A DNA stretch of 64,000 nucleotides from Parvularculaceae bacterium. GTDB taxonomy: Bacteria; Pseudomonadota; Alphaproteobacteria; Caulobacterales; Parvularculaceae. Under the pieces are notes generated by a model. The model saw only the letters and a program-made list of their open reading frames with translations. It made no database searches and was not told the origin of the DNA. The translations under genes and the position numbers were made by a program. The DNA is taken from contig JAJFFV010000005.1 in the NCBI GenBank assembly GCA_021776475.1, positions 1,674,001 to 1,738,000 on the forward strand, given 5' to 3'. How positions within the stretch are numbered: position 1 is the stretch's first letter; each line of letters starts with the position of its first letter. Of the stretch, positions 38,998 through 47,071 are shown in pieces.

Positions 38998-39651
38998 TCA
39001 CGTTTTGTTGTTTGATGCGTAAAGAATGTCGCAATCCTCACACCGTCATGCAGCCTGTACGTCTCTTCCAGCCGTTAAATACGATCCGCCGCAACTGACT
39101 TAATAGGTTTCGTTGGAACACCGCCCTGCCATCATGAGGATTGGACAGAGGGACGCCGGTGTCCGCTGACGCAGCAGGCAGCTCTTTTGACGATTACCCT
39201 CTGGCCAGGCGGCTGGGCAGGGAGCTATGCGAGACCAACATGCAGGACCAACACCGGTCTTCAGATGTCTATTTCGGGCGCGGACAGAGCATTTTACTCA
39301 ATCGGGAATGGATCAAACGCAAAACAATGGAAAAACGGCGCTTGCAGCACTCAAAGTCTGCTGCTCAATATGAAACACAAGATGGACCAAATACTCCCCA
39401 GATAAACAAAGCTCGTGCCTCAACTCTTTCGATGACGGACACTAGCGTCAGTACCGAATGGTCCACATAAGTGTATTACATCGGGTTACGCCCAATTCGG
39501 CGTCCGTAGAGCCGATTTCACCACATAAAATGAGAATGGCACACCAAACAGTTGTCTACAGAATATTGCATACACTCTAATTGTATGATTCGATTTTCCG
39601 TGTATCGGTTAGGACGCGGATATACGGTTACAGTGCAATTAGTGAGGGAAT
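38998..39651. other. Gene-free stretch containing the leader of the peptide cluster
   Basis: Overlapping plus-strand frames at 39141-39470 and 39187-39405 have no recognised family or ribosome site. The last ~110 bp before the peptide gene are AT-rich and contain an imperfect inverted repeat, CGTGTATC (39599-39606) and GATATACG (39619-39626), a candidate regulator site. Confidence 0.4.
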
Positions 39652-39861
39652 ATGCGTGATTTAAGATCAGAAGAACTTGAAAAAGTGTATGGGGCCGGCA
39701 GCAAGGGCAAATACAAGAAGGACAAAAAGAAAAAACATAAGGGCGGATCTGGAAGTTCTAAAGGAGGAAGCAGTTCTAAGGGCGGTAGTAGCTCTAAAGG
39801 CGGCAGTAGCTCCAAGGGTGGCGGTAGCTCAAAGCATGGCAATAACTGCTGCTGCTATTAA
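39652..39861 (+). CDS. Class II microcin-like / RiPP precursor peptide with GGSSSK repeats and CCCY end
   Basis: 69 aa. The leader fits the double-glycine consensus exactly relative to a cut after Gly14-Ala15: Leu4 (-12), Glu8 (-8), Leu9 (-7), Val12 (-4), Gly14 (-2), Ala15 (-1). The predicted core (54 aa) begins GSKGKYKKDKKKKHK and continues with Gly-Gly-Ser-Ser-Ser-Lys units at 38-61, closing HGNNCCCY. It has about 14 Lys against one acidic residue. GAGGG precedes the ATG. The C39-peptidase exporter three genes downstream is the expected processing partner. I know of no described peptide with this core; activity (antibacterial, signalling or metal-binding) is unknown. Confidence 0.8.
   Translation: MRDLRSEELEKVYGAGSKGKYKKDKKKKHKGGSGSSKGGSSSKGGSSSKGGSSSKGGGSSKHGNNCCCY
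39763..39834 (+). repeat. Four tandem 18-bp repeats in the precursor gene
   Basis: Three units encode Gly-Gly-Ser-Ser-Ser-Lys and one Gly-Gly-Gly-Ser-Ser-Lys. The DNA units differ at synonymous sites (for example GGAGGAAGC, GGCGGTAGT, GGCGGCAGT), so the peptide repeat is kept while the DNA diverges. Confidence 0.85.
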
Positions 39862-39897
39862 CCAAAAAAATCTTCGCCTTACTTCCACTACCAACAG

Positions 39898-39923
39898 CGC
39901 CCGGCTAACGCCGGGCGTTTTTT
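39898..39923 (+). terminator. Strong rho-independent terminator after the precursor gene
   Basis: CGCCCGGC (39898-39905), loop TAAC, GCCGGGCG (39910-39917) and six T residues. It lies between the peptide gene and the rest of the cluster, so the short transcript should be much more abundant than the read-through for the export genes. Confidence 0.92.
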
Positions 39924-39987
39924 CATTAACCATGTTTCAGATGGCGCATTTCATGCATTTGTAGCCTGTCAATGTAGGGGTAGCAAA

Positions 39988-40989
39988 ATGGACAAGACTG
40001 AATTCTCCACAGCGAAAGCCGAGGCCTATGCCGATACTTCGCCTGTGGGAGACGTCAGTGCCGAGCTGTTATCCGGCGATGACGATAAATCACAGGAGGA
40101 ATACAGGTTACTAGGACAACCGCCGCTTCAGTCACATCTCTCGTTTGTCCGCGATCACGTTGTTGGGGGAGAGGACGTTGTTGCCGCCAGGGAGGCTGAC
40201 GCTTGGCGAATTGCAAATGATTATTACGGTGAACTTGAAGACAGTGAAGAAGGAGAAGCGGACCGCATTGAAATTCGGGACCTGCCATCAAAAATCAAGA
40301 GATTGTGCAAAGTCGCCAAACAAGACCCGCGATATGAATTTACGTTCGACACGTTCCCGACAGAATTTGCGATGGTTGAGCTCGACCGGCTTATCATTTT
40401 TCAAACGCACGTAACGAAGCCTTTTTCGGAGCGGTTGCAGGCGCAAATCGGGCCCAATCCAAATCTAGAAACGCTGTTCAAGTTTTGTTTGCCTTCCGAG
40501 GGACCGGCAGCGCCAGTGGATGTGAAACGAGTGGGTAGTCGACGATTCGTATTTTCTTCGACGTCAACAGATTTCAGGCGCCACGCCCCTGTTTTGCTAG
40601 ACCCAGATCAAGTGATCAATCATAAAACGTTCGGTCCCGTAAGCGGTTTTGTGGGGCTTGGCGTTGGGTACGGATCAAATTATTTTACCGGTATACGATA
40701 CGGTGACCGCATCCTGTTACACAACGGGTATCACAGGGCACATGCTTTGCGCGCATCAGGCGTGACACACGCCCCGATGATTATCCAGACGGTCACCCGA
40801 AAAGACGAACTCGAAGTCGCTGCGAAACAGGACGTCGTTGATGATTGGCGTTTCTATTTTACTGCGGCAAGACCGCCGCTGTTTAGGGATTTTTTTAATC
40901 CCCGCATTTGCCGCACGTATGAAGTGCACAAGACGATGAAGATGATCGAGGTCACTTTTGAAATTCGTGATTTCTATGTGAGAGCTTAG
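39988..40989 (+). CDS. Peptide-cluster protein with possible ParB/sulfiredoxin-like motif
   Basis: 333 aa, cytosolic, no membrane segments. Residues ~219-262 (GFVGLGVGYGSNYFTG, then GDRILLHNGYHRAHALRASG) resemble the NG-x-HR-x-A-x-R core of the ParB/sulfiredoxin fold, which includes nucleases, the kinase SbnI and sulfiredoxin. The N-terminal ~110 residues are acidic. Its place between the precursor and the exporter suggests peptide modification, chaperoning or immunity; none of these is proven. GGGG precedes the ATG. The next start is 4 bp after its stop. Confidence 0.7.
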   Translation: MDKTEFSTAKAEAYADTSPVGDVSAELLSGDDDKSQEEYRLLGQPPLQSHLSFVRDHVVGGEDVVAAREADAWRIANDYYGELEDSEEGEADRIEIRDLPSKIKRLCKVAKQDPRYEFTFDTFPTEFAMVELDRLIIFQTHVTKPFSERLQAQIGPNPNLETLFKFCLPSEGPAAPVDVKRVGSRRFVFSSTSTDFRRHAPVLLDPDQVINHKTFGPVSGFVGLGVGYGSNYFTGIRYGDRILLHNGYHRAHALRASGVTHAPMIIQTVTRKDELEVAAKQDVVDDWRFYFTAARPPLFRDFFNPRICRTYEVHKTMKMIEVTFEIRDFYVRA

Positions 40990-40993
40990 CGCA

Positions 40994-42328
40994 ATGTCTG
41001 AAGGCATAACAGCAGGCAAGGAAGTCACAGCGCGCAAGTCAGAGGACAAAGAACTCGCGCTCTTCCGTCAAGAGGCGCTCGAGCACCAAAAGTCCCAATG
41101 GTTAGGTACGGTTTTACTGGCGCCCGGGATCTCTCATACACTGTTTGCTGCCTTTGCTGCCATTTCATCTGCCGCGATACTCTGTCTATTGATGTTTTCA
41201 GATTATACCCGCAAGGAAAAAGTCACTGGTTGGCTCGTGCCGGAACAGGGTGTGGTTAGAGTATTTAGTCCGCAACAAAGTGTGATCACGGCGATTAACG
41301 TGAAGGAAGGAGATTTTGTAAGCCGGGATCAGGTGTTGATCGAGGTTTCGACGGAAACACGAAACACCTCGGGAGATCAGACGCAATCCAGTATTATTCG
41401 CGAGCTCATTGCAAAAGAAATCAGTTTGCGGACCGAACGCCGATTAACAGATGCGGTACATAACGCTGATGAAGAGGCGCTTAGTCAGAAGATCAAAGCC
41501 CTCGAGGCTGATCTTAGCTTGCGCGAAGAGGAGCTTTCCATTCTGCGCGACAAAGTAGAGCACGCCACAGAAGACTTCGAACGCCTTGACCGGTTGCAGA
41601 ACACGGGCGCCATATCCGGTCGCCGACTAGCTCAAGTAAAAGAAGAACAACTAAATCATTTGTCCGAACTACGGTCCTTTGAGCGAGAGTTCGCTGCCGT
41701 GAAAGAAGAAAAGGTGGAGCGCGAAGCAAACTTACGAGCTGCACCATTGCGCCGACAAATGGCACTGGCACAACTAGATCGTTCAGCCTCAGAGGTCCGA
41801 CAACAGCTCGCTGAGGCGGAAGCGCGACGCGGACGCACAATTACCGCACCCCAATCTGGAATTGTTACGGCTCTCCAAATTGAATTGGGCGGCAGCGTCT
41901 CCCCAGATATTCCTCTACTCACTATCCTGCCAGAAGGGTCAGTCCTTCAAGCAGAACTGTTCATACCTAGTAAAGCGAGGGGTTTGATAAAAACGGGACA
42001 AATTGTGTCGCTGAGGTATCAGGCATTTCCATACCAGCGGTTCGGCCAATACAAGGGGGAGGTATCGCGAGTTTCAAAATCAGCGATCACACCCAGTGAA
42101 CTTGTCCGACAGCATCAATCAACTTCCCGAAGGGAAAGCACACAAGAGCCTGTCTACCCTGCAACCGTAAAATTAGAGCGACAATCCGCAATCGCCTATG
42201 GAGAGCCCATCGACTTGCAACCTGGCATGCAAGTCGAAGCACATATTGAAATCGAAAAACGCCGGTTGATCGAATGGGTTCTTTCACCCCTGTTCAAACC
42301 CAAGAAAGGGGTTCCTGGATGGCGATAG
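40994..42328 (+). CDS. HlyD/CvaA-like membrane-fusion protein of the peptide exporter
   Basis: 444 aa. A cytosolic start with LALFRQEALEHQKSQWLGTV, one membrane helix (about 47-69), a lipoyl-like half (VITAINVKEGDFVSRDQVLIEV), a long coiled coil (~130-275), and the second lipoyl half (GRTITAPQSGIVTALQIELG) followed by a beta-barrel domain. The N-terminus closely follows CvaA, the adaptor of colicin V export. It bridges the inner-membrane ABC protein and the outer-membrane factor. Its end overlaps the ABC gene by 10 bp. Confidence 0.93.
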   Translation: MSEGITAGKEVTARKSEDKELALFRQEALEHQKSQWLGTVLLAPGISHTLFAAFAAISSAAILCLLMFSDYTRKEKVTGWLVPEQGVVRVFSPQQSVITAINVKEGDFVSRDQVLIEVSTETRNTSGDQTQSSIIRELIAKEISLRTERRLTDAVHNADEEALSQKIKALEADLSLREEELSILRDKVEHATEDFERLDRLQNTGAISGRRLAQVKEEQLNHLSELRSFEREFAAVKEEKVEREANLRAAPLRRQMALAQLDRSASEVRQQLAEAEARRGRTITAPQSGIVTALQIELGGSVSPDIPLLTILPEGSVLQAELFIPSKARGLIKTGQIVSLRYQAFPYQRFGQYKGEVSRVSKSAITPSELVRQHQSTSRRESTQEPVYPATVKLERQSAIAYGEPIDLQPGMQVEAHIEIEKRRLIEWVLSPLFKPKKGVPGWR

Positions 42329-44436
42329 TCGATGACCTCAATTTTGGTTTTTCTCGCCGGCTTCCGGTTGTCCTTCAAACAGAGGCGGCAGAATGCGGCG
42401 TTGCATGCCTGACCATGTTGGCTGGTTTCTTTGGGATGCAGACAGATCTGGCTGAGCTCCGCAGAAAGTTTGGGATTTCTTTAAAGGGAGCAACTCTCAA
42501 CGACATCGTGAGCGTTGCAGATAGCATTGGCCTCGCTTCGAGGCCGTTGCGGGTTGAGATGGGCGAACTTTCAATGTTGCAAACACCCTGCATCCTGCAC
42601 TGGGACATGAATCACTTTGTTGTGCTGCGAAACGTAGCTCAGGACTCCATTACTATACACGATCCAGCAGTTGGTGTACGGAAGCTATCAAATACTGAAG
42701 TCTCGCGACATTTTACGGGCGTCGCGGTTGAATTGACCCCGACGCACGGTTTTACTCAATCGGAGAAGCCGCCGCGGGTGCGACTACGTGACATGTTAGG
42801 CCGATTTTCCGGGGTGAAGCGATCTCTCCTGCAACTGTTAGTCATTGCTTTTGCATTGGAGATTTTTGCAATTACCAGCCCGCTATTCATGCAATGGGTA
42901 GTTGACCATGCGTTGGTATCAGCCGATCAAGATCTGCTGACAATCCTGGTTGTCGGGTTCACGCTCCTTTTACTCATTCGAACGTCCGTGGCAACAATGC
43001 GCGGGTGGATGCTGATGGTGCTCGGCGCATCGCTCAAGGTGCAAGCGCGCACCAATCTTTTTTCTCATCTGCTAAATTTGCCAGCACCTTTTTTTCAAGC
43101 GCGCCATCTGGGAGACATCGTCTCAAGATTCGGATCACAAGATACTATTCTTAAAGCAATCACAACTGAACTCATTGAAGTTGTTCTGGATGGCGTGATG
43201 GTTGTTTTTACCCTGCTGATAATGGTCTTGTATGCACCAACTTTGGCAATACTTGTTGTCGCTGGCGCTTTTGTCTATGCATTTTTGAAGTGGGTATCTT
43301 ACGTGCCTATACGGCAGGCCTCTGCAGAGGCAATTGTTTGGTCAGCAAAGCGTGACACTCACTTCCTCGAGAGTTTGCGCGGCATAACGACCATCAAGTT
43401 ATTTAATGCGCAAGAGCGGCGGCGTGTACATTGGACATACCTCTTGGTGGAAACCGTCAACAGGCAACTGACAACGCAAAAGCTTCGGTTGCTCTTGCGA
43501 ACCTTAAAATCACTCATTCTTGGAGGGCTTACTATTTTGGTGATTTGGTTTGGTACAAACCGTGTGATGCAAAATACGATGTCAATAGGTATGTTATTGG
43601 CATTCATAGCGTACAAAGATCAGTTCTTGGGGAGAATCAGCGCGCTTATTGAGCGGTTTGTCGATCTGCAGATGCTTAACATTCATACAGAGCGCCTTGC
43701 TGATATTGCACTGACAAAACCGGAACAAAGACATTGGCATGGGAACCAGAACCTTGACCGTAGTCCCCTTGCCATCAGCGTCTGCGACCTTAAGTTTAGG
43801 TACGGTGAAAACGAACCATTCGTTTTAAATGGACTGAACTTTGATATAAAGGCCGGAGAGTCTGTTGCGATCGCAGGTCCGTCTGGTTGCGGTAAGACCA
43901 CTTTGGTGAAGCTGCTTGCTGGTTTGCTAACCCCTTCAGAAGGCCACATCATCGTGAATGGTGAGCCGGTCAATGCCGCCAGCCTTGAGCGCTACCGATC
44001 TGCAATAGGTGTCGTGATGCAAGACGACCAACTGTTCGCAGGCTCTATTGCAGACAATATCAGCTTTTTTAATGAAGTGAGCGATCTGGATCGGATTCAG
44101 AAATGTGCCGAAGAGGCTGCCATCCATGACGATATAATGGCGATGCCGATGGGCTATCACTCTTTAATCGGAGATATGGGAACAATTCTCTCGGGCGGGC
44201 AAAAGCAACGGGTCTTGCTGGCGCGTGCTTTCTACCATCAGCCAAGTCTCCTGTTACTAGATGAGGCAACCAGCCACCTGGATTTGGCGCGCGAAAGATC
44301 GGTCAATGAGGCCATCAGCAGAAAGCTAGTCACACGGATCATTGTGGCGCACAGAGGCGAAACGCTGCATTCAGCAGACCGCCTGATCTCCTTAGAGGCT
44401 GGACGTGTCGTTAACCTACAAAAACAATTGGCGTGA
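42319..44436 (+). CDS. C39 peptidase-containing ABC exporter (CvaB-like)
   Basis: 705 aa from the ATG at 42319 (AAAGGGG upstream). The N-terminal C39 double-glycine peptidase has its full catalytic set: Gln20, Cys26 (QTEAAECGVACL), His99 (HWDMNHFVV) and Asp115 (IHDPAVG). A six-helix membrane domain follows, and then an ATPase with Walker A GPSGCGKTT (520-528), signature LSGGQKQR (from 624) and Walker B LLLLDEAT (~644-651). It removes the leader of the precursor peptide and exports the core in one step. All motifs are intact, so the system looks functional. Confidence 0.95.
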   Translation: MAIVDDLNFGFSRRLPVVLQTEAAECGVACLTMLAGFFGMQTDLAELRRKFGISLKGATLNDIVSVADSIGLASRPLRVEMGELSMLQTPCILHWDMNHFVVLRNVAQDSITIHDPAVGVRKLSNTEVSRHFTGVAVELTPTHGFTQSEKPPRVRLRDMLGRFSGVKRSLLQLLVIAFALEIFAITSPLFMQWVVDHALVSADQDLLTILVVGFTLLLLIRTSVATMRGWMLMVLGASLKVQARTNLFSHLLNLPAPFFQARHLGDIVSRFGSQDTILKAITTELIEVVLDGVMVVFTLLIMVLYAPTLAILVVAGAFVYAFLKWVSYVPIRQASAEAIVWSAKRDTHFLESLRGITTIKLFNAQERRRVHWTYLLVETVNRQLTTQKLRLLLRTLKSLILGGLTILVIWFGTNRVMQNTMSIGMLLAFIAYKDQFLGRISALIERFVDLQMLNIHTERLADIALTKPEQRHWHGNQNLDRSPLAISVCDLKFRYGENEPFVLNGLNFDIKAGESVAIAGPSGCGKTTLVKLLAGLLTPSEGHIIVNGEPVNAASLERYRSAIGVVMQDDQLFAGSIADNISFFNEVSDLDRIQKCAEEAAIHDDIMAMPMGYHSLIGDMGTILSGGQKQRVLLARAFYHQPSLLLLDEATSHLDLARERSVNEAISRKLVTRIIVAHRGETLHSADRLISLEAGRVVNLQKQLA

Positions 44437-44443
44437 AAAATCG

Positions 44444-45838
44444 ATGCAGTGTTTAGAAAGATATTGTAAGATCTGGTCTCTGGTTTTGGCTACAGGCGTG
44501 ATGTTAGCTTCATGCGAGGCGGTGCACGAGTCGTTTAAGGAAGATCATCTCTACGCGCGACCCCAGCCGCCTGCGAATTGGACAGGCGAGGTGAGTGTGC
44601 AGGCACATGAGCCAATTGCATGGATAGATGCACTTCAAGACACCCACCTCATGGCATTAGTGGAGGACGCTCAGCGGTCCAACTATGATATCGCAGCGAT
44701 CTCAGCACGCGTGGCTCAGTCGCGTGCGCTGGTGAAAAGGGCGCGGGCCGATCTACAGCCCTCCGCTGACCTCGCGGTGCGGGGGGAGCAACGCGACGAT
44801 GAGCGCTTTAATCGTGAAACATTTGATCGCAACAGCGCGGGCGCAGATGTAAGCTGGGAAATCGATTTGTGGGGCCGATTGCAATCCGGGAAAAAAGCCG
44901 CAGAGCTGAACGCTGCCGCGGAGGCCTCTGACCTACTTTTTTCCCAACAGGCTCTGGCTGCTTCAGTTGCAAGAGCCTATTTCCTGCTCATCGAGACTAA
45001 ATACCAGACCGACATTGCAAATCGATCCTTGGGTGTTCTGTCTGATATTCATCGGCTAGTACGGCTTCAATATGATAACGATCTTGCAACGTCTCAAGAT
45101 TTGGCGCTTGCAGAATCAGACCTGTTGACTGCGCAAGAAAACCTCTTACGGGTCAAGCGAGCCTCGCGTTCGGCAGAACGATCTCTCGAAGTATTGCTTG
45201 GAAGGTATCCGTCTTTGACACTTGATACGGGTTCGGGTTTTCCGGATCTGCCTTCGTTGCCAGCTGCAGGGTTTCCGTCCGAGCTTCTTGAGCGTCGCCC
45301 AGACATTATCGCTTCTCAGCAGCGGATATTAGCCTCCCGGGCCGGGATCTCACAAGCGAAGCGAGCCCGGTTGCCACGGTTGATTTTGGATGCACAGGTA
45401 GGGACGTCCGCCAAGCGACTTCAAAATCTTTTTGGATCTGGTAACCTCGCATGGGCTCTTGGTTCCGCGTTGACGGCACCGTTGATTGACGGCGGTCGAA
45501 GGGGCGCAGAAATAAAATCACGAATGGCAACGGAGCGCGGCTCGGTGGCGGCATACGGACAGCTGGTATTGGATGCATTTCTGGAGGTGGAAGAGGGGTT
45601 AGATGAAATCGACATATTGGCGCAACGGGAAACGCTGTTAGCTCAAGTTACCGCAAAGACAGAATCTGCGCTTGCAGTTGGACAAACGTTGTACTTAGCA
45701 GGCGAAACCGATTTGATTGATGTCCTATCCATCCAACAAAGAGTTCTTGATGCACAAAGTGATCTGGCACAGTTGCAACGCCGCCGCTTGGATGCGTGGG
45801 TAAATCTTAATCTTGCGCTTGGAGGCCATTGGAAATGA
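44444..45838 (+). CDS. TolC/NodT-type outer-membrane factor lipoprotein
   Basis: 464 aa from the ATG at 44444; an in-frame start at 44405 is less likely. A lipobox is present (VMLASCEAV). The body has two repeated outer-membrane efflux domains with long helices (WEIDLWGRLQSGKKAAEL and LDAQSDLAQLQRRRLDAWVN), as in the RND/NodT family. It completes a tripartite type I channel with the adaptor and ABC protein just upstream, so the peptide is released outside the cell. Confidence 0.92.
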   Translation: MQCLERYCKIWSLVLATGVMLASCEAVHESFKEDHLYARPQPPANWTGEVSVQAHEPIAWIDALQDTHLMALVEDAQRSNYDIAAISARVAQSRALVKRARADLQPSADLAVRGEQRDDERFNRETFDRNSAGADVSWEIDLWGRLQSGKKAAELNAAAEASDLLFSQQALAASVARAYFLLIETKYQTDIANRSLGVLSDIHRLVRLQYDNDLATSQDLALAESDLLTAQENLLRVKRASRSAERSLEVLLGRYPSLTLDTGSGFPDLPSLPAAGFPSELLERRPDIIASQQRILASRAGISQAKRARLPRLILDAQVGTSAKRLQNLFGSGNLAWALGSALTAPLIDGGRRGAEIKSRMATERGSVAAYGQLVLDAFLEVEEGLDEIDILAQRETLLAQVTAKTESALAVGQTLYLAGETDLIDVLSIQQRVLDAQSDLAQLQRRRLDAWVNLNLALGGHWK

Positions 45839-45897: not shown

Positions 45898-46209
45898 CTA
45901 CGTCGGACAATATATCGATATAAGGGTCTCGATCACTTTTGCCGCCGCTGGATCGGAAATGCGGTAAAAAATCACCTGGCTTTCACGGCGCGATGACACA
46001 AGCTGGTGTTCACGTAAAATCCCGAGATGCTGCGATATCGCGGACTGGGTCATGTCAAAGTCCGCCTGCAATTCACCAGCAGCTGTTTCCCCCGCACACA
46101 ATCGGCATAAGATCATCAGCCGCGTTTCGTTAGACATCGCCTTCAGTAATTGGGAGGCCTGTGTGGCCTGCATCTTCAGCGTTTCAGCGTCGAATTGAGC
46201 GACGGACAT
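45898..46209 (-). CDS. ArsR-family regulator, BigR/SqrR-like persulfide sensor type
   Basis: 103 aa winged helix (LLKAMSNETRLMILCRLCAG, then DMTQSAISQHLGIL). Cys35 and Cys101 are 66 residues apart, the same spacing as the redox pair that forms a tetrasulfide in SqrR/BigR; Cys38 is extra. Those proteins derepress sulfide-detoxifying genes, but none lies nearby here. The divergent gene is a LuxR solo. The intervening TTGCTT-ATT-AAGCAA palindrome is a candidate operator. Confidence 0.85.
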   Translation of the reverse strand: MSVAQFDAETLKMQATQASQLLKAMSNETRLMILCRLCAGETAAGELQADFDMTQSAISQHLGILREHQLVSSRRESQVIFYRISDPAAAKVIETLISIYCPT

Positions 46210-46336: not shown

Positions 46337-47071
46337 ATGCGAACCTCAGACGACACATTTGAAGGGTTGGTGAATCGCGTCGATCAGGCGCCGACGTCCA
46401 TAGACCTGCAAAAAATCACCTTCGACTTTTTCAAATCTCTTGGCGCGACCTCAATTATTTATCACCTCTTACCTCCGATCGGTGCAACGCCGATGGATCC
46501 GGCCCGATCCATTCACTCTTGGGGGTTTCCGATGGAGTGGGCCAGGAAATACACTAAGGAACGGTATTTTGAGCACAATCCGATTATCCGGAAAGGCCGA
46601 TCGAAGAACCAGGCATTTCTTTGGTCTGATATAAGAAACGAAAATAATCTGACCGAAGACGAAGAAATCTTTCTTCGTGAGATGGACGAAGCGAACCTTG
46701 GTGATGGCATCGCGATTCCAACTTATGGGCCCAATGGATATAATGGGAGTTTGGCGTTCGGGCTGGCGCTCGATAGCGTGCAACTCACACAAACACAAAT
46801 TTTACTGGCGCAAATTATTGCTCAGTTAGCGCATCAACGCCATTGCCTGATAATCAGGTTTGTTGGGGAAAAGAAAATTTCGTTTTCAAATCAGGAGCGA
46901 CAAGTTATTCATTGGATGGCGCTTGGAAAATCCAACTCAGTTATTGCAGATATCTTGGACATCTCTCAACACACAGTAGATACATATGCTCGGCGTATTT
47001 ACGAGAAATTAGACGTTTCAGATCGTTTGTCGGCAACCCTTCGTGGTATGTCCCGTGGCATTTTGCACTGA
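46337..47071 (+). CDS. LuxR-family regulator with autoinducer-binding domain (LuxR solo)
   Basis: 244 aa. The autoinducer-binding domain has the usual landmarks Trp68, Tyr72 and Pro82 (PMEWARKYTKERYFEHNP) and FLWSD, but the Asp that contacts the acyl-homoserine-lactone amide is Asn81. The C-terminal GerE helix-turn-helix (VIHWMALGKSNSVIADILDI) is intact. No LuxI synthase is in the window. It lies ~500 bp downstream of the peptide export genes and could regulate them; this is inference from position only. Confidence 0.9.
   Translation: MRTSDDTFEGLVNRVDQAPTSIDLQKITFDFFKSLGATSIIYHLLPPIGATPMDPARSIHSWGFPMEWARKYTKERYFEHNPIIRKGRSKNQAFLWSDIRNENNLTEDEEIFLREMDEANLGDGIAIPTYGPNGYNGSLAFGLALDSVQLTQTQILLAQIIAQLAHQRHCLIIRFVGEKKISFSNQERQVIHWMALGKSNSVIADILDISQHTVDTYARRIYEKLDVSDRLSATLRGMSRGILH

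Follow-up and report, generated by a model that had tools for sequence, protein, structure and literature searches.

A candidate mobile cassette pairing a secreted serine-rich ribosomal peptide with a ParB/sulfiredoxin-like protein in a Parvularculaceae bacterium

What does a large protein without recognised family do when its gene lies between that of a small leader peptide and those of a peptide export system? This question is raised by a locus in a stretch of 64,000 nucleotides from a Parvularculaceae bacterium (GenBank assembly GCA_021776475.1, contig JAJFFV010000005.1, positions 1,674,001 to 1,738,000), here called the window. Five genes, all located on the plus strand according to the open reading frames (ORFs) of the window, encode a precursor peptide, a protein of 333 amino acids, which we name X, an adaptor, an ATP-binding cassette (ABC) exporter with a peptidase C39 domain and an outer-membrane factor (OMF). 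We propose, with slightly less than even confidence, that the locus is a cassette which spreads horizontally and encodes a small secreted ribosomal peptide, and that X phosphorylates serines of the precursor before export. The parts of this proposal differ in strength: it is very likely that the locus encodes an exported peptide system and fairly likely that X acts on the precursor; that X is a serine kinase is a possibility to which we lean less than to its opposite. The features of the locus are as follows (positions in the window):

39652..39861, plus strand: precursor peptide of 69 amino acids, with the leader MRDLRSEELEKVYGA and the expected core GSKGKYKK...GGSSSK repeats...HGNNCCCY
39896..39919, plus strand: terminator-like hairpin between precursor and X, 10 pairs followed by TTTTC
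39988..40989, plus strand: protein X, 333 amino acids, undescribed family, ParB/sulfiredoxin-like, invariant NGxHR box; putative enzyme that modifies the precursor with the help of NTP
40994..42328, plus strand: HlyD/CvaA-type periplasmic adaptor, 444 amino acids (Pfam HlyD_3, 3e-18)
42274..44436, plus strand: Peptidase C39-containing ABC exporter, 720 amino acids (Peptidase_C39 4e-37, ABC_membrane 9.4e-37, ABC_tran 8e-34)
44447..45838, plus strand: NodT-type OMF (OEP 5.1e-41), lipoprotein-like start

An initial annotation of the window had described a complete export system for an unusual and undescribed peptide, with the five genes on one strand and all catalytic residues of the exporter in place. 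This description is supported: the layout and all coordinates were borne out, and the motifs QTEAAEC, HFVVL, IHDP, GPSGCGKT, LLLDEATS and LSGGQKQR are present in the exporter. Gene order, leader, basic serine-repeat core, complete export path and the pairing of the peptide with X are all evident from the DNA sequence. Adaptor, exporter and OMF each exceed the cut-off for their own Pfam family. The OMF also exceeds the cut-off of the NCBIfam model outer_NodT (TIGR01845; 250.1 versus 210.05 bits), and the adaptor stays below that of TIGR01843 (140.4 versus 208.65 bits); an alternative upstream GTG start of the OMF gene is possible at 44405. The best phmmer matches of the exporter in the PDB are chains described as 'ABC-type bacteriocin transporter' (8vp3, E 6.7e-95; 4ry2, E 1.1e-94), which we take to be PCAT1. 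The exporter matches PCAT1-type transporters over residues 26-714 (E about 1e-94) and has an intact catalytic triad; in contrast to them, it is accompanied by HlyD and OMF in a predicted Gram-negative three-part assembly, and its expected substrate is of another type. A second C39 peptidase domain is found elsewhere in the same genome in an open frame of 246 amino acids (C3:25619-26020). For the precursor and for X, no Pfam or NCBIfam match exceeds its cut-off.

A chance ORF can be rejected for the precursor, because its leader recurs at other loci and its repeats have diverged synonymously. The leader is found 5' of the X homolog in all six other cassette loci, and it has the same form, 15-18 amino acids with a GG or GA cleavage site, in eight precursors of seven loci. 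Its consensus, MR[DEN]L..xE[L/W]..V[Y/S]G[A/G]G with Glu or Asp at the E position, holds for five named loci and for genome G1096. A six-frame scan of 575 kb located the motif only at the eight precursors; the scan gave 12 matches, five of which are the window locus and its copies, and the motif was derived from these same peptides. The frame is thus kept across seven loci, and its conservation had been named as a check of the initial annotation. When the window core was set against itself with an offset of six codons, 13 codon differences proved synonymous where 4.2 were expected. Among the seven precursors subjected to this test, P fell below 0.05 in two only, those of the window (0.0005) and of Steroidobacter (0.028), in whose repeats serine is encoded by both AGY and TCN codons; P was 0.083 for Methylobacterium nodulans and 0.27-0.98 for the remaining four. 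The Paracoccus precursor is missing from the gene table of its own record. As in ribosomally synthesized and post-translationally modified peptides (RiPPs), a ribosomal precursor with leader and core is present. The leader had been assigned to the double-glycine type, which holds for the type; the motif itself reads Gly-Ala-Gly, and a cut after GA is expected from the class II microcin leaders described in passages of PMC10233263.

Assuming cleavage after GA or GG, the window core comprises 54 amino acids, starts with G and contains 15 Ser, 14 Lys, 3 Cys and 1 Asp, with almost no hydrophobic residue; the cores of the other loci are 32-48 amino acids long. In seven of the eight peptides, serine accounts for 15-31% of the core residues, and Lys and Arg together account for 18-37%. 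The G1096 core consists mainly of Gly and Lys, with 6 Ser in 39 residues, and the Paracoccus core has two Lys only. GGSSSK units and the CCCY end had been singled out as distinctive traits; serine together with basic residues is indeed common to the relatives, but cysteine is optional. A Cys-rich tail was rejected as a defining trait, since the cores of three of the seven loci (Paracoccus, Rhodobacter and G1096) lack Cys; that of Steroidobacter has three. Blastomonas encodes a second peptide (L008, 3516-3698) with the same leader and a mixed-charge, serine-poor core beside a 2-oxoglutarate oxygenase gene. Ten loci with related exporters but without X were used for comparison, and a leader peptide was found in four of them: those of Burkholderia ubonensis and Shewanella are hydrophobic and glycine-rich, those of Moraxella and Phyllobacterium are mixed, and none is of the basic, serine-rich kind. 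The leader-peptide pattern came up empty in the other six, some of which are cut by record ends.

The hairpin between precursor and X has a z-score of -3.70, and none of 200 shuffled sequences was as stable. Folding covered six of the seven cassette loci, all except G1096, and the stretch 3' of the precursor is likewise more stable than its shuffles in the five others, with z-scores between -2.09 and -2.70; for Paracoccus, this stability was reached by 11 of the 200 shuffled sequences. Over the whole region, the number of terminators does not exceed that in shuffles (9 versus 8.9). Its probable effect is that more precursor is produced than protein from the genes 3' of it.

Where else does X occur, and in which company? 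Using tblastn, X was found on four of 72,556 plasmids at 38-49% identity, all from Alphaproteobacteria: Paracoccus liaowanqingii, Methylobacterium nodulans (pMNOD02), Rhodobacter sp. CZR27 and Blastomonas sp. RAC04. Three of these records are typed as non-mobilizable and one as mobilizable. A scan of 84,980 species genomes with short peptide patterns gave one X, in the gammaproteobacterium Steroidobacter agaridevorans. Whole-genome sets, which overlap and in which the window's own genome is counted where included, gave the own genome only in 1 of 61 (single-sequence search), 1 of 385 and 1 of 348 genomes; X was found in 3 of 398 (the own genome and two others), 4 of 149, 3 of 321 and 1 of 2 genomes of further sets. 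Altogether, 11 loci are known: the window, the five named records and the genomes G519, G786, G925, G930 and G1096. Given so few loci among the plasmids and genomes searched, X is rare and scattered; it is probably more common than 11 loci, because the pattern scan catches close relatives only. No match to a known defence protein was obtained with PADLOC (three members scanned), and an origin of X as a phage family is unsupported, with eight weak PHROG matches among ten members, of which the best has E 0.015 and four are ParB-like. In viral contigs, no relative is encoded by any of 94 candidate stretches, and a search of phages with the Paracoccus X as query gave one weak partial match (E 0.1).

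All 11 X genes adjoin genes for ribosomal peptides, and the precursor itself was read in ten cases. In seven of the 11 loci, the leader peptide is located 5' of X, with a C39 exporter nearby; in G1096, an ORF of 551 amino acids on the other strand (L021, 6219-7874, minus) separates the precursor from X. The HlyD and C39-ABC genes follow 3' on the same strand in five of the six cassettes outside the window, whereas those of Blastomonas are encoded on the opposite strand. Of the seven loci, the window and Blastomonas alone have an OMF gene in the vicinity; the G1096 contig ends soon after the ABC gene. A FemAB-like gene lies alongside the M. nodulans, Steroidobacter and G1096 cassettes, a 2-oxoglutarate oxygenase gene alongside Blastomonas X, and a histidine kinase and response regulator alongside Paracoccus and Rhodobacter X. 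The FemAB-like neighbor could be a lysine-directed aminoacyl transferase or a self-protection factor; two frames of the FemAB family are also present in the window's own genome, outside of the cassette. On plasmids of Acinetobacter and Moraxella catarrhalis (L057, L059), a cupin-domain gene precedes HlyD and C39-ABC genes and perhaps encodes another precursor-linked enzyme.

In the remaining four genomes (G519, G786, G925 and G930; two genera of one family), X is divergent from a lasso-type cluster with asparagine-synthetase-like and transglutaminase-like genes (lasso C and B). These enzymes were tested against Pfam in L012 and recognised by the look of their ORFs in the other three loci. Lasso leaders carry a penultimate Thr, as stated in part of PMC10368454. 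The predicted core AH[NS]HGTLWDG[VI]FPTTSP follows such a Thr and has Asp at position 9 (L012, L016 and L017); the precursor was read in these three of the four loci and not looked for in L013, and the assignment of the core is a prediction. A covalent modification of the core is suggested by X itself and by its place beside this second kind of RiPP cluster.

The most obvious alternative is an ordinary class II microcin of the MccV type, i.e., an unmodified antibacterial peptide with X as its immunity protein. The export logic is indeed already known from class II microcins (PMC10233263), and MccV/CvaC with CvaA-CvaB-TolC shares the leader of about 15 amino acids ending in GG or GA, the C39-ABC exporter, the HlyD adaptor and the OMF, encoded by adjacent genes. 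In the window, a C39-ABC exporter with Cys-His-Asp, an HlyD adaptor and an OMF are all present, and leader and exporter parts fit the five-part layout with an immunity gene beside the precursor outlined in passages of PMC10233263. The FemAB-like gene of three loci could moreover be a self-protection factor, since the femAB homolog epr protects against a glycylglycine endopeptidase according to part of PMC4034026. However, the neighbor of the precursor is here a large ParB-like protein (308-336 amino acids across the family) and no recognised immunity protein, its conserved residues include a nucleotide-type GxHR box, and the family is also found beside lasso-type clusters with an unrelated core. 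The usual mark for a membrane helix is a 19-residue hydropathy of 1.6; three of the 11 X members have one stretch above it (1.74-1.93), but X of the window is nowhere hydrophobic (maximum 0.83). In addition, the cores of the ten known class II microcins are 60-90 amino acids long (PMC10233263), a range outside of which all cores described here fall, and the window core is basic, built of serine repeats and lacks a hydrophobic stretch; the four peptides found beside related X-less exporters are hydrophobic in two cases and mixed in the two others. An ordinary microcin is thus unlikely.

Does the cassette move as a unit? Among 4022 plasmid records with a match to the window exporter, those from Paracoccus, M. 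nodulans and Rhodobacter that also carry X rank as the top three (58-60% identity), and the next-best has 51% identity. In an exporter tree with 17 rows, including ten X-less relatives, all but one of the seven exporters linked to X group in a single clade with a support of 100/100, which comprises Alpha- and Gammaproteobacteria. X and exporter identities correlate with r 0.80 (15 non-independent pairs from six loci). Because of the exporter clade and this correlation, the cassette probably moved as a unit among the six loci. The Blastomonas exporter sits on a long branch outside the X-linked clade. The initial annotation had asked whether the exporter travels with different substrates: the same kind of substrate is found in the six loci whose exporters form one clade, and at the seventh, Blastomonas, leader and X are the same but the exporter is of another lineage. 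Because Blastomonas retains X and the leader type despite its different exporter, X appears to be tied to the peptide rather than to the transporter. None of five congeners of the window genome contains X. The left flank with hydrolase and major facilitator superfamily genes has matches in congeners, and other genes then follow in the two examined; no clean insertion site of the cassette is demonstrable from this comparison. The stretch 39264-39350, just 5' of the precursor, recurs at two other places of the genome (C5:1807989-1808075, 78%; C6:496293-496382, 74%) and may be a small mobile or repeat element at the cassette boundary.

The 333-residue protein was left unexplained by the initial annotation and turned out to be the most informative part of the locus, being ParB/sulfiredoxin-like with a box nearest to those of serine kinases. 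Twenty-eight positions are invariant in all 11 X proteins, among them E131, D195, R197, N246, G247, H249 and R250; G247-x-H249-R250 thus gives the GxxR motif, which is described in sections of PMC12704722 as the phosphate-binding motif (P motif) of ParB/sulfiredoxin-fold proteins. An hhalign comparison of X with ParB_N (PF02195) scored 32.4 (P 4e-4), compared to a maximum of 20.9 in 300 column shuffles. The ParB alignment used for this was built from 15 of the 20 loci tried (30 fetched) with a selection pattern that required GERR/GHRR-like boxes; the absence of GxHR from it was not used as evidence, since the pattern itself demanded other boxes. The full X profile has only four PDB matches at E<=10, all of them ParB/Spo0J (E 0.26-0.48). 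A profile of the box region (59 positions) has eight. Of the best seven (E 0.48-1.1), three belong to variants of a single SerK, three to chains of SbnI and one to 1vk1, which is recorded as a 'conserved hypothetical protein', carries a SerK box and is presumably a SerK homolog; the eighth is the unrelated NrdH. Two control blocks of X (59 and 55 positions) gave no PDB match. Among 18,950 NCBIfam models, four of the 11 X members, one of them lasso-linked, match SerK only (E 0.0084-0.1, overlapping at model positions 54-95). Four weak lines thus agree in suggesting a ParB/sulfiredoxin fold for X. Passages of PMC12704722 describe this fold in the ATP-using enzymes SerK, SbnI and sulfiredoxin. 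X shares with the free serine kinases SerK and SbnI the GxHR nucleotide box and the following strand-helix (vLhNGyHRayaLralGithaPcivqt in X versus LIVDGHHRWAGLQKLGAKRAPSVILD). It differs from them in its length and its own N-terminal region, the SerK and SbnI chains having 242-256 amino acids, and in its link to peptide precursors, as SerK acts on free serine only.

Several observations weigh against a serine kinase acting on the precursor. Each fold match taken alone is below threshold (E 0.008-1.1), and the seven box matches represent about three different proteins. In the search with the full-length profile, ParB and not SerK comes out on top; no hmmscan match to ParB_N was obtained for the eight X members scanned. 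X of the window alone matches only the unrelated ComR in the PDB (E 0.96), the best score against the curated SerK model NF053625 is 15.3 bits with a cut-off of 380, and in NCBIfam two X members match unrelated models weakly and five, including that of the window, match none. Before the box, all 11 X proteins have Asn (NGxHR), where SerK and SbnI have Asp (DGxHR). AlphaFold models, made from alignments of two, are unusable: the mean confidence (pLDDT) was 29.4 for the window X and 29.8 for the Steroidobacter X, of which the C-terminal part was modelled. Serine is scarce in the second Blastomonas peptide (3 of 45 residues), which also contains six acidic residues. One SerK-like protein of the ParB-fold survey turned out to bind CTP instead of ATP (part of PMC12704722), and published SerK was inactive on serine within a peptide, as reported in a section of PMC5120207; a peptide-serine kinase of this fold would therefore be new. 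Kinase activity, modification, export and biological role are what we infer here from sequence.

The rank of ParB in the full-length search also bears on the idea that X is a ParB-fold nucleoside triphosphate switch that regulates expression or export of an unmodified peptide. Many switches that bind CTP or ATP and many gene regulators have a ParB fold (sections of PMC12704722), and besides the four ParB-like PHROG matches, one further match is a 'DNA binding protein'. Nevertheless, no helix-turn-helix family is among the Pfam matches of the eight members run, X follows the precursor type and not one exporter, and other regulators are already encoded at two X loci (histidine kinase and response regulator) and in the window (a LuxR-type protein); a regulatory X is quite improbable. 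This LuxR-type regulator with an autoinducer-binding domain is encoded just past the cassette (46337-47071), and the one LuxI homolog of the genome is distant (C5:84539-85072); quorum control of the cassette is possible. An ArsR/SmtB-type regulator gene (45898-46209) is convergent with the OMF gene and may or may not belong to the cassette.

Since the box profile matches SbnI, which serves a siderophore, as well as SerK, X could instead make a free small molecule such as O-phosphoserine, with the peptide being a carrier or a class IIb-like microcin with a Ser/Gly tail. Class IIb microcins need a Gly/Ser-rich C-terminal region for siderophore attachment, as set out in passages of PMC10233263. 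However, the annotation of the four plasmid stretches, which reach up to 8 kb to either side, contains no gene for a siderophore or its attachment, and serine is spread through the whole core and not confined to a tail, which leaves this alternative very unlikely.

In the proposed pathway with X as a precursor-directed serine kinase, the precursor would be made in excess of the downstream proteins and bound by X, which would phosphorylate its repeated serines through a ParB/sulfiredoxin-type nucleotide pocket. The C39 domain would then cut after GA, and the exporter would send the core out through HlyD and the OMF. Once phosphorylated, the strongly basic chain would have its charges balanced, so that the product would be a very hydrophilic polyampholyte, in which phosphoserines offset Lys and Arg, rather than a membrane-inserting microcin. 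Candidate roles are surface, adhesive or mineral/metal binding, signaling and antibacterial activity.

Phosphorylation could also be a step to dehydroalanine, to which Cys or Lys would add to form lanthionine or lysinoalanine bridges. Class III and IV lanthipeptide synthetases act by phosphorylation and elimination. The window core, rich in Ser and Lys and ending in NNCCCY, and the three Cys of Steroidobacter would suit such chemistry, but no lyase or cyclase is recognised in the window cassette with Pfam or NCBIfam, and neither the Cys-free cores of three loci nor the two Lys of Paracoccus fit; such bridges are highly improbable. A precedent for phosphorylation of a peptide precursor is given by the lasso-peptide kinases PadeK, ThcoK and SyanK, which belong to an HPr-kinase-like family. 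They phosphorylate serine in the linear RiPP precursor before maturation, including polyphosphorylation, and have a His-Lys-Asp-Asp motif (part of PMC9266682). X shares this idea but is without match to such a family, yet it lies beside lasso-type clusters in four genomes. Diatom silaffins are secreted peptides rich in phosphoserine and lysine. The window peptide resembles them in composition only, with Ser-Lys-Gly repeats such as GSKGSK and a putative balance of phosphoserine and basic residues, and there is no homology.

A limited search of open-licence PubMed Central papers, which is weak evidence of absence, found no description of this system in print, and the words RiPP and peptide are absent from the ParB-fold survey PMC12704722. 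The pairing of a peptide of serine and basic repeats with a ParB/sulfiredoxin-like protein was likewise not found in these limited searches. It may represent a new RiPP class, and would do so if X were demonstrated to be a kinase. A broader version is conceivable, though somewhat doubtful: a class in which a ParB/sulfiredoxin-fold peptide kinase yields a secreted phosphoserine polyampholyte with a composition similar to that of silaffins or cement proteins, the same family also tailors a lasso peptide, and a FemAB-like aminoacyl transferase and a 2-oxoglutarate oxygenase vary the product. The genomic company of X gives an uncharacterised family a testable function, as the same family is found beside two unrelated kinds of ribosomal peptides, and the cassette is small and plasmid-borne in named strains of Methylobacterium nodulans, Paracoccus, Rhodobacter and Blastomonas. 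If X is a kinase, the ParB/sulfiredoxin fold would gain a peptide-modifying enzyme. Bacteria would then have a dedicated route to secreted, multiply phosphorylated and charge-balanced peptides, which may be of use in materials, in metal or mineral binding, or as an antimicrobial or signaling lead.

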